A stretch of DNA of 64,000 nt from NCBI RefSeq assembly GCF_002808045.1, contig NZ_CP025000.1, positions 2,294,001 to 2,358,000 on the forward strand, read 5' to 3'. The stretch is from Idiomarina sp. X4 (GTDB lineage: Bacteria; Pseudomonadota; Gammaproteobacteria; Enterobacterales; Alteromonadaceae). Of the stretch, positions 6,911 through 51,096 are shown piece by piece. The notes beneath the pieces are model-generated. The model was given only the letters and a program-made list of their open reading frames with translations, had not been told where the DNA came from and ran no database searches. The translations under genes were made by a program, and so were the position numbers. Each line of letters starts with the position of its first letter. Positions within the stretch are counted from its first letter, which is position 1.

Positions 6911-6914
6911 AGAG

Positions 6915-7092
6915 TCTGGAAGAGGCGCGGTACTCAGGCAGCTTAGCAACCATCTACCAAAGAGCTAAGTGAGGGGAGTAACCGCCGAGGCGCAAGTGCA
7001 TGGCATGGCTTGCGTCGGCTGTTGAGTTTGAACACTTGCGGCTGTCACCGTTAGGTGGAGAGCTTCTGGAGACCCTCCTTTTTAAGCTCTCT
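6915..7092 (+). promoter_or_regulatory. Lysine riboswitch (L box)
   Basis: The leader of lysC carries the conserved lysine-aptamer segments in order: AGAGGCGCGG (6921-6930), GTGAGGGGAGTAACCGCCGAGG near 6969-6990 given here by its ends only, a GGCTGT block near 7016-7022, CTGTCACCGTTAGGTGGAG (7042-7060) and CTTCTGGA (7063-7070). Helix P1 can form between TCTGGAAG (6915-6922) and CTTCTGGA (7063-7070) with two G-U pairs. An alternative hairpin, GGAGAGCTT (7057-7065) with AAGCTCTCT (7084-7092), would capture the 3' strand of P1, and inside it GGAG/CTCC (7068-7078) is followed by five T. This is the switching element by position. Whether control is by termination or by translation cannot be settled by eye. 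The gene downstream is the lysine-sensitive aspartokinase, the expected target. Confidence 0.9.
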
Positions 7093-47789: not shown

Positions 47790-47818
47790 TTGCTCTAAAG
47801 GAAGCGGTCGATTATAGT
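47790..47818 (+). promoter_or_regulatory. Putative promoter of thrS
   Basis: TTGCTC (47790-47795) and TATAGT (47813-47818) are 17 bases apart. Transcription would start near 47825, giving a leader of about 90 bases that begins right at the first operator hairpin. Confidence 0.6.
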
Positions 47819-47825
47819 AGCGTCT

Positions 47826-47892
47826 TGCGTTCGATGGTACCGAACGCACCAAATTTCAATAAATAGAGCATGTGGCACTTGGTAGGTGTCAC
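47826..47892 (+). promoter_or_regulatory. thrS translational operator with two tRNA-Thr anticodon-arm mimics
   Basis: Hairpin A: TGCGTTCG (47826-47833) / CGAACGCA (47841-47848), seven-base loop ATGGTAC. Hairpin B: GTGGCAC (47872-47878) / GTGTCAC (47886-47892), seven-base loop TTGGTAG. In both loops GGT occupies the third to fifth positions, where the anticodon sits, and loop B differs at one base from the tRNA-Thr(GGU) loop TTGGTAA. A 23-base A/T-rich linker separates them, and the ribosome site AGGAAGGAAG follows hairpin B. In E. coli, ThrRS represses its own translation by binding a leader with this layout (two hairpins, single-stranded linker, ribosome site). The match in order and loop sequence is strong; function here is inferred. 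Confidence 0.8.
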
Positions 47893-47914
47893 CACTGGAT
47901 AGGAAGGAAGTTTC

Positions 47915-49828
47915 ATGCCTGTAATTACTCTCCCTGACGGAAGTCAACGCGAATTTGAACAACCGGTTTCAATCATGGATATCGCTATGGATATCGGGCC
48001 TGGTCTGGCGAAAGCGACTGTTGCTGGTCGCATCGACGGCGAGTTGGCCGATGCCTGCGATAAGATTGAACACGACGCCAAAGTAGAAATTGTCACACCG
48101 AAAGACGACGATGGCGTTCATATTATTCGCCACTCGTGCGCTCACTTAATGGGTCACGCAGTTAAGCAGCTGTGGCCTGATGCGAAAATGGCGATTGGTC
48201 CGGTTATCGATAACGGTTTTTACTATGATATCGACGTTGACCATACCTTCACCGACGAAGACTTAGAAAAAATTGAAAAGCGAATGAAAGAGTTGGCTAA
48301 AACCAACTATCAAGTCGTTAAAAATAACGTCAGCTGGAAAGAAGCGCGTGAAACCTTTGTTGACCGTCATGAGCCCTACAAAATTGAGATTTTAGACGAG
48401 AACATTCCAACCGATTCTCGACCGGCGCTCTACCACCATGAAGAATACATTGATATGTGCCGGGGACCGCATGTGCCTAGCATGAAATTCTGCGAACACT
48501 TTAAAGTCATGAAAATGGCTGGCGCGTATTGGCGCGGCAACTCTGACAACAAAATGTTACAGCGTATTTACGGCACTGCCTGGGCAGACAAGAAACAGTT
48601 AAAAGCTTATTTGAAGCGCTTGGAAGAAGCGGAAAAACGCGATCACCGTAAAATTGGTAAGAACCAGGACTTGTTCCACTGGCAGGAAGAAGCGCCGGGC
48701 ATGGTGTTCTGGCACCACAACGGCTGGACGATTTTCCGCGAGCTGGAAGAGTTTGTACGCGAAAAGCTGCGTGAATACGATTATCAGGAAGTCAAAGGTC
48801 CAATGATGATGGACCGTGTGTTGTGGGAAAAATCAGGCCATTGGGAGAAATTCTCTGACCTGATGTTCACAACGGCGTCAGAAAATCGTGAGTATGCCGT
48901 TAAACCGATGAACTGCCCGGGACACGTACAAATCTTTAACCAGGGGTTAAAGTCTTACCGTGATTTGCCTTTGCGTATGGCAGAATTTGGCTCGTGCCAT
49001 CGAAATGAACCTTCGGGCGCATTGCATGGTCTGATGCGTGTACGTGGCTTTACTCAGGATGACGCGCACGTTTTCTGTACTGAAGACCAAGTACAGCCCG
49101 AGGTAGCAGCCTGTATTAAGATGGTTTACGAGACCTATGAAACCTTTGGTTTCGACAAAATCGATGTAAAGCTGTCGACGCGTCCTGAAAAGCGTTTAGG
49201 CGATGATGCAACTTGGGATCGTAGTGAAAAAGCCTTGGCTGACGCGCTGAAAGCGCACGATATCGACTTTGAATACTTGCCAGGCGAGGGCGCATTCTAC
49301 GGCCCGAAAATCGAATTCACGTTATTCGACTGCTTAGGTCGTGCTTGGCAGTGTGGTACTATTCAGTTGGACTTTGCCCTACCAGGGCGCTTAGGTGCGA
49401 CTTACGTAGGTGAAGACAACGAGCGTCATACGCCGGTAATGATTCACCGTGCTATTTTAGGCTCACTGGAGCGTTTCATGGGTATTCTGATTGAAGAATA
49501 CGCAGGGCATTTCCCGGTTTGGTTAGCACCGACGCAAGTCGTTTTGATGAATATCACCGATAATCAGAGCGATTATGTGAAAAAGGTGGTAAAATCACTG
49601 AATGAAAAGGGAATTCGTGCCACGGCTGACTTGAGAAATGAGAAGATTGGCTTTAAAATCCGTGAGCATACTCTTAAACGAGTTCCTTATTTGCTGGTTG
49701 TCGGCGACAAAGAAGTCGAGGCTGGCGAGGTTGCGGTTCGTACTCGTAGCGGTGAAGACCTGGGTAAACTGGCTCTGGAAGACTTCATTGCAAAAATTGA
49801 AGACGAAGTACGGACTCGCAAAATTTAA
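47915..49828 (+). CDS. thrS: Threonyl-tRNA synthetase
   Basis: A 637-residue class II synthetase. In order: TGS domain (residues 1-62), the editing (SAD) domain with [11 protein letters not shown], the catalytic core with the zinc Cys in KPMNCPGH, a His in TQDDAHVF and a His in [11 protein letters not shown], and the anticodon-binding domain (about 535-637). Full length, as in E. coli (642). The leader carries a candidate autoregulatory operator. It is followed 22 bases later by infC with its AUU start, the usual order in gammaproteobacteria. Confidence 0.98.
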
Positions 49829-49850: not shown

Positions 49851-50396
49851 ATTAAAGGCGGAAAAAGAACTCAAAAAGCTGCAGATAAAAACCGTATCAA
49901 CGACCAAATTACCGGTGTTGATGAAGTTCGCTTAATCGGAACCGATGGTGAACAAGCTGGTGTCGTCAGTATTAACGAGGCTCTTGATGCAGCAGCGGAA
50001 GCTGGTGTTGATTTGGTGGAGATGAGCCCTAACGCGGAGCCACCGGTCTGTCGCTTAATGGATTACGGTAAGTTCCTCTTCGAGAAGAGTAAAGAACAGA
50101 AAGAACAGAAGAAAAAGCAGAAACAGATTCAGGTTAAGGAAGTGAAATTCCGACCTGGCACAGATGAGGGCGACTACCAGGTAAAACTGCGCAACCTGCG
50201 TCGCTTCCTCGAGGGAGGTGACAAAACGAAAGTCACTATCCGTTTCCGTGGCCGGGAAATGGCACACCAAGAGTTGGGTATTGACCTGCTAAACCGTGTT
50301 AAAGCGGATTTAGAAGAAATCTCAACTGTTGAGTCGTTCCCTAAAAGGGCTGAAGGTCGCCAGATGATTATGGTTCTGGCACCGGTTAAGAAGTGA
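49851..50396 (+). CDS. infC: Translation initiation factor IF-3 (AUU start)
   Basis: A 181-residue IF-3. The start is an ATT codon at 49851, eight bases after a strong GGAGG site; the protein then reads [10 protein letters not shown], matching the E. coli N-terminus, which also starts at AUU. The first in-frame ATG (50013) would remove the whole N-terminal domain. Domains: IF3-N (to about residue 85, with MDYGKFLFE) and IF3-C (about 95-180, with [16 protein letters not shown]). AUU starts let IF-3 repress its own translation by rejecting non-canonical start codons, so the same feedback is expected here. Confidence 0.97.
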
Positions 50397-51070: not shown

Positions 51071-51096
51071 AAGGGAGCCATTAGGCTCCCTTTTTT
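51071..51096 (+). terminator. Terminator between rplT and pheS
   Basis: Stem AAGGGAGCC (51071-51079) / GGCTCCCTT (51084-51092) with an ATTA loop and six T. In E. coli this interval holds the pheM leader peptide and attenuator. I see no Phe-rich short frame here, so this may be a plain terminator, with pheS having its own promoter. Confidence 0.9.

Follow-up and report, generated by a model that had tools for sequence, protein, structure and literature searches.

An anticodon-arm-like pair of hairpins in the thrS leader of Idiomarina, a probable version of the Escherichia coli thrS translational operator

The thrS locus and its leader

The window, the whole stretch of 64,000 nucleotides that was analysed, comes from a chromosome of Idiomarina type. 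All features described here lie on its forward strand. The open reading frame of thrS (47915-49828) encodes a threonyl-tRNA synthetase (ThrRS) of 637 amino acids with the domains TGS, tRNA_SAD, tRNA-synt_2b, and HGTP_anticodon. The closest named protein is the ThrRS of Idiomarina zobellii (99% identity). Aligned with E. coli ThrRS, the window protein is identical in 467 of 642 columns, and its N-terminal part in 160 of 224 residues; the N-terminal TGS and tRNA_SAD domains, which are needed for repression in E. coli, are present. The best-matching solved structure was E. coli ThrRS itself (1qf6), and 1kog, which we take to be the ThrRS-operator complex, was listed with the E. coli core.

Downstream of thrS lie infC, rpmI, rplT, pheS, and pheT, in the same order as in E. 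coli; these genes were read from their open reading frames, the domain scan having been applied to thrS alone. The upstream neighbour is a divergent gene for an EamA transporter. The start codon of infC appears to be AUU (49851-49853), and E. coli infC likewise starts with AUU. A terminator-like hairpin, AAGGGAGCC-ATTA-GGCTCCCTT followed by a run of T, was recognised by eye between rplT and pheS (51071-51096), and a lysine riboswitch (Rfam RF00168, 64.9 bits) lies at 6912-7073.

The predicted promoter of thrS consists of a -35-like element, TTGCTC (47790-47795), a 17-base spacer, and a -10 element, TATAGT (47813-47818), and sets the predicted +1 near 47825, one base upstream of the first of two hairpins. 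The first-pass annotation had described this promoter as good. The -35-like element matches the consensus at only three of six positions, and a consensus promoter scan found no promoter; nevertheless, the -10 element is identical, and the arrangement TTG-N17-TATAGT retained, in 19/19 Idiomarina leaders.

Both hairpins were found where the annotation had placed them. The distal arm, D (47826-47848), has an 8-bp stem (UGCGUUCG/CGAACGCA) and the loop AUGGUAC (47834-47840; GGU at 47836-47838), and the proximal arm, P (47872-47892), a 7-bp stem (GUGGCAC/GUGUCAC) and the loop UUGGUAG (47879-47885; GGU at 47881-47883). The 23-base A/T-rich linker that had been reported between them (47849-47871), which by analogy with E. 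coli may serve as a ribosome standby stretch, is real in the window, although linkers differ in length: with the D stem taken as 7 bp, they range from 24 to 83 bases among the 19 Idiomarina leaders, and the idea of a fixed distance between the arms was rejected on this variation. In one fold of the window leader the linker is unpaired, and in the minimum-energy fold its last bases pair with the start of the leader. Directly after arm P comes an unpaired CACUG (47893-47897), conserved in an alignment of 109 sequences, and then a Shine-Dalgarno stretch, AGGAAGGAA (47901-47909). The letters C-A-C-U were invariant across the 109 aligned sequences, whose rows had been selected for at least four of five matches to CACUG, and in the aligned leaders this motif is more constant than the stem of P that precedes it. 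As a whole, the window leader is no more stable than its shuffles (z -0.20). Searches with Rfam 15 gave no match to the leader in the window; the leader loci of Idiomarina and of E. coli likewise gave none at E values up to 10.

Arm P and its spread

Leaders were read from (i) 19 Idiomarina genomes, (ii) 80 named loci, (iii) 89 others of the order, out of 103 other genomes with thrS, and (iv) 89 others of the class, out of 104. Draft assemblies are included both here and among the genomes read for tRNA genes. The sets overlap: 12 of the 80 named loci come from genomes already in the genus set, and the family leaders L353, L354, and L356 from genomes already in the order set. We called arm P strong where at least six of its seven pairs and at least four of the five letters of CACUG were present. 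By this rule it was strong in all 19 Idiomarina leaders, in 79 of the 80 named loci (the exception, L092, has an 8-base loop), in 72/89 leaders of the order (5 weak, 12 none), and in 31/89 of the class (4 weak, 54 none), so that most of the sampled leaders outside the order are without P.

Folding energy could not be used as evidence for arm P: with a z score of -1.19, it was equalled in stability by 23 of 200 shuffles. Moreover, the minimum-energy fold of P alone adds two pairs, yielding nine base pairs and a GGU triloop; the 7-base loop rests on the relatives. In an alignment of 109 distinct sequences, that of E. coli among them, 97.0% of the cells of the P stem were paired and 150 cells showed two-sided change. 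The covariation score was 0.680, whereas shuffles scored 0.228 (sd 0.014) and slid controls no more than 0.159; two weaker measures, the number of pairs with two-sided change and the number of extra pair types, were reached by 45/500 and 26/500 shuffles, respectively. Because these rows had been chosen partly by pairing, the selection was repeated on CACUG and a GU at fixed distance only. Six or seven of the seven P pairs were then present in 19/19 leaders of the genus, 79/80 named loci, 71/71 of the order, and 30/31 of the class, against 2.4% at randomly chosen places. Arm P is a real RNA element, and chance is excluded as its origin.

An RNA model built on P, R1, gave one match each in 58 of 59 family genomes, some of which were in the training set; the only family genome without a match is an 81%-complete assembly. 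In a search of 299 Pseudomonadota genomes, 55 had a match, 51 of these in Gammaproteobacteria, a count that gives no frequency for the class, and thrS lay directly downstream in all 46 match loci examined (20 from the Pseudomonadota survey and 26 from the family survey). Spread beyond Gammaproteobacteria was rejected, as the four outside matches were weak and all fell in one family (f158), and the stretches retrieved from their surroundings encode no thrS by tblastn. Also rejected was a second operator in the window's own genome, where the next R1 match (E 0.126) lies within an open reading frame. In three leaders from other families of the class (L259, L249, and L276, the last read by eye), a second anticodon-like arm stands close beside P, like a tandem copy.

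Arm D, its presence and absence

Arm P is conserved in many related bacteria; the outer arm, D, comes and goes. In the window D is marked by its stability (z -4.05), none of 200 shuffles being as stable. It is present in 19/19 Idiomarina genomes, its foot 0-5 bases 3' of the predicted +1, and when each genome was compared with its shuffles, p was 0.05 or lower in 16 of the 19. Within the genus only two of seven pairs show two-sided change. A 10-bp version of the stem was rejected, having no covariation excess.

Comparison within the wider family was based on 54 leaders, one of the original 55 (L378) having been left out as an Idiomarina genome already counted. A hairpin with a 7-base NGU loop occurred upstream of P in 17 of the 54, against 1.15 expected. 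In 11 of these 17, the arm stands 5-13 bases downstream of a TTG-N16/18-TATNNT promoter that was read by eye; the top promoter chosen by script was the same in ten, and in L385 the script preferred a site adjoining P. When the family arms were aligned with those of Idiomarina (15 distinct of 17 rows), 23 cells showed two-sided change and covariation was 0.713 compared to 0.243 in shuffles, a score reached by 0/500; the weaker measures were reached by 24/500 (pairs with two-sided change) and 32/500 (extra pair types). As the family rows had been selected for a stem, the weight of this result rests on the shuffle control, not on the percentage paired. A chance origin of D is very unlikely.

Close relatives lack D. 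In the 13 named genomes of Pseudidiomarina, P is preceded by a predicted 14-17 nt of leader, which cannot accommodate D and so leaves one arm; D-like matches in several of these leaders were discounted by eye, as they overlap the predicted -10 box or sit upstream of it. In the 15 rows of the Aliidiomarina group, P follows 31-106 nt of leader, and the D candidates in L098, L107, and L109 were weak (p=0.44 each) and not counted. A ThrRS tree of 55 rows gathers Idiomarina in a single clade (99/93), places Pseudidiomarina (94/85) next to it, and leaves the Aliidiomarina group outside, a topology that both two losses of D and one regain would fit. In a narrow scan, a D-like arm reached p<=0.05 in 30/72 order leaders with P and in 4/31 leaders with P outside the order. 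The single-armed relatives indicate that two arms are not universal.

The first-pass annotation had read the leader as carrying, much as in E. coli, two mimics of the tRNA-Thr anticodon arm, and the covarying stems and retained G-U support that reading. On the evidence of the arms' sequence, structure, and covariation, their linkage to thrS, and the domains of ThrRS, we consider it highly probable that P and D together are the counterpart, in Idiomarina, of the translational operator of E. coli thrS; the transcription start, the binding of ThrRS, the repression, and the share that falls to D we infer.

It is rather unlikely, but deserves weight, that only P is the ThrRS operator and that D is a 5'-terminal hairpin guarding the mRNA from decay or holding the linker open, with its anticodon likeness due to descent or chance. 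The position of D at the predicted +1 would suit such a role, as would its absence from Pseudidiomarina for want of room, the at most weak candidates of the Aliidiomarina group, and the scarcity of D-like arms outside the order. The loops argue otherwise: G-U-A is retained in the D loops of all 19 Idiomarina, and A-N-N-G-U in those of 11 other family leaders despite stems that have changed in compensating pairs. Further, E. coli uses its second arm, according to two reviews (PMC7373986, PMC9976931).

A DNA palindrome at +1, serving as a transcription factor site rather than as an RNA arm, is a very improbable identity for D. Its stem sequence is nearly constant in Idiomarina and overlaps the predicted start site, consistent with such a site, but the D pattern is found only at thrS in 12 of the 19 genomes, with at most two further sites in each of the other seven, and in the wider family paired letters of the stem change together.

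Loop letters and the isoacceptor question

The genome's own tRNA-Thr(GGU) has the arm CACCC-UUGGUAA-GGGUG. As the annotation had stated, the loop of P is one base away from this loop; that of D is two bases away. G35-U36 was present in 187/187 leaders (89 distinct sequences) chosen by hairpin and CACUG with the loop letters left free. Base 34 of P, counted over 108 distinct sequences, was C in 53, G in 49, A in 5, and U in one, and the base preceding it is not always U. Among the 19 Idiomarina leaders, P has GGU in all, and D has GGU in 16, UGU in two, and AGU in one. The tRNA-Thr genes of the window's genome cover just GGU and UGU, and a pattern search gave the same set in nine other Idiomarinaceae genomes. 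The same approach detected no CGU tRNA-Thr gene in 15/15 Vibrionaceae genomes with CGU in P, three pattern matches without the usual GGTC of the variable loop having been set aside; the pattern does match E. coli thrW.

These data do not bear out the earlier proposal that both loops mimic the GGU isoacceptor. That the loops are specific sensors of this isoacceptor, both arms competing with tRNA-Thr(GGU) in particular, would accord with the GGU found in both arms of 16/19 Idiomarina genomes and with a tRNA-Thr gene set of GGU and UGU only, but we hold it to be still less probable than a palindrome, as base 34 drifts in P and in D and the 15 Vibrionaceae genomes with a CGU loop show no corresponding tRNA gene. 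Isoacceptor matching was rejected on the base-34 counts and the tRNA gene sets. Since base 34 drifts while G35-U36 stay, the loops keep the identity bases of ThrRS, not an isoacceptor. A comparison of relatives' leaders had been the annotation's own suggested test: the stems of both arms covary and the loops keep G-U, although the full GGU is not invariant. Chance hairpins can be dismissed almost entirely, for while the whole leader folds no better than its shuffles, covariation and occurrence at thrS contradict them.

Terminator-like hairpins in the leaders of relatives

A terminator-like hairpin was found upstream of P in 15 of the 54 family leaders, against 0.25 expected (14/54 against 0.3 under another rule). 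In ten of the 11 leaders with D at the promoter (L365, L373, L374, L384, L385, L387, L388, L392, L397, and L400), its place is between D and P, and its usual form is AACACCC...GGGUGUU followed by a run of U. In L408 (genome G037), the terminator-like hairpin also mimics an anticodon arm, ACACCC-CUCGUAU-GGGUGU followed by a run of U, and starts 50 nt upstream of P. Of the 58 class leaders in which P is not strong, 11 also have a terminator near thrS, probably that of an upstream gene; the ten leaders are set apart from these by a promoter and D that precede the terminator. The window leader has no terminator-like hairpin between D and P. In the leader of Idiomarina xiamenensis (L019), a terminator-like hairpin, AACTCGC-GTTA-GCGAGTT followed by a run of T, was seen upstream of P.

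The arrangement in the ten leaders hints at transcriptional control (attenuation) or at a separate small RNA. One doubtful scenario, to which we give only a small probability, is that in the wider Alteromonadaceae-type family either ThrRS on the nascent D sets read-through or promoter, D, and terminator make up a ThrRS-binding small RNA; loss of the terminator would then have left Idiomarina with D as a second translational arm, and Pseudidiomarina, losing D as well, would have become one-armed.

The proposed operator and known systems

As the hairpins resemble the anticodon arm of threonine tRNA, ThrRS can probably bind its own message and shut it off. Under the two-armed operator that we favour, transcription would start at the foot of arm D. 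Whenever ThrRS is in excess of free tRNA-Thr, its anticodon-binding domains would take P, and probably D, in place of tRNA, and free tRNA-Thr would compete and lift the block. G35-U36 would be the part of the loop that is recognised, base 34 not serving as an isoacceptor code. Arm D may add affinity through the second ThrRS subunit, while P, as the arm retained in evolution, would be expected to exert the larger part of the control.

For E. coli, two reviews (PMC7373986, PMC9976931) describe an operator with two anticodon-like stem-loops, a clash of the ThrRS N-terminus with the 30S subunit, competition by tRNA-Thr, and a switch of specificity when the operator loop is changed; the idea of one arm per ThrRS subunit is therefore not new, the two-arm operator being described there. 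The ribosome site of E. coli thrS is bipartite (PMC3858243), and one paper (PMC2965389) mentions, in passing, the control by E. coli ThrRS as transcriptional. A comparative account of the thrS leader was not found in the literature searched, which is weak evidence of absence as most subscription papers were beyond reach, and the accessible text of a survey of Shewanella leaders (PMC2659441) contains no match for "threonyl".

The present comparison extends a textbook case of molecular mimicry from E. coli to a wide range of Gammaproteobacteria, and with R1 it supplies an RNA model for searches, which Rfam 15 lacks. Evolution has kept G35-U36, the stem of P, and the CACUG tail, and has let go of base 34, arm D, and the length of the linker. 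Comparing one-armed Pseudidiomarina with two-armed Idiomarina offers a natural way to ask whether repression requires an arm on each subunit of the ThrRS dimer.

Compared with the E. coli thrS operator (domains 1-4), P is the counterpart of domain 2, with 7 bp and a 7-base NGU loop followed by CACUG and the Shine-Dalgarno stretch, and in both leaders a second anticodon-like arm lies further upstream across an A/U-rich linker. They differ in that the P loop has GGU in the window and CGU in E. coli, and in that the window's D, placed at the predicted +1, combines a short stem free of mismatches with a 7-base loop; the predicted leader in the window is about 90 nt long. The distal arm picked by our scan in E. 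coli has a stem mismatch and an 8-base loop with UGU, and D is likened to it by position and loop, not by homology with domain 4. The T-box leaders of Firmicutes synthetase genes are similar in that a leader RNA matches the output of a synthetase to tRNA; unlike the proposed operator, T-boxes bind the tRNA itself, and no Rfam family matches the thrS leader. The mRNAs of yeast AspRS and other yeast synthetases offer a further parallel, as the synthetase binds its own mRNA via an anticodon mimic, according to one review (PMC9976931); these systems are eukaryotic and differently built, and are likened to the Idiomarina leader by mechanism, not by sequence.
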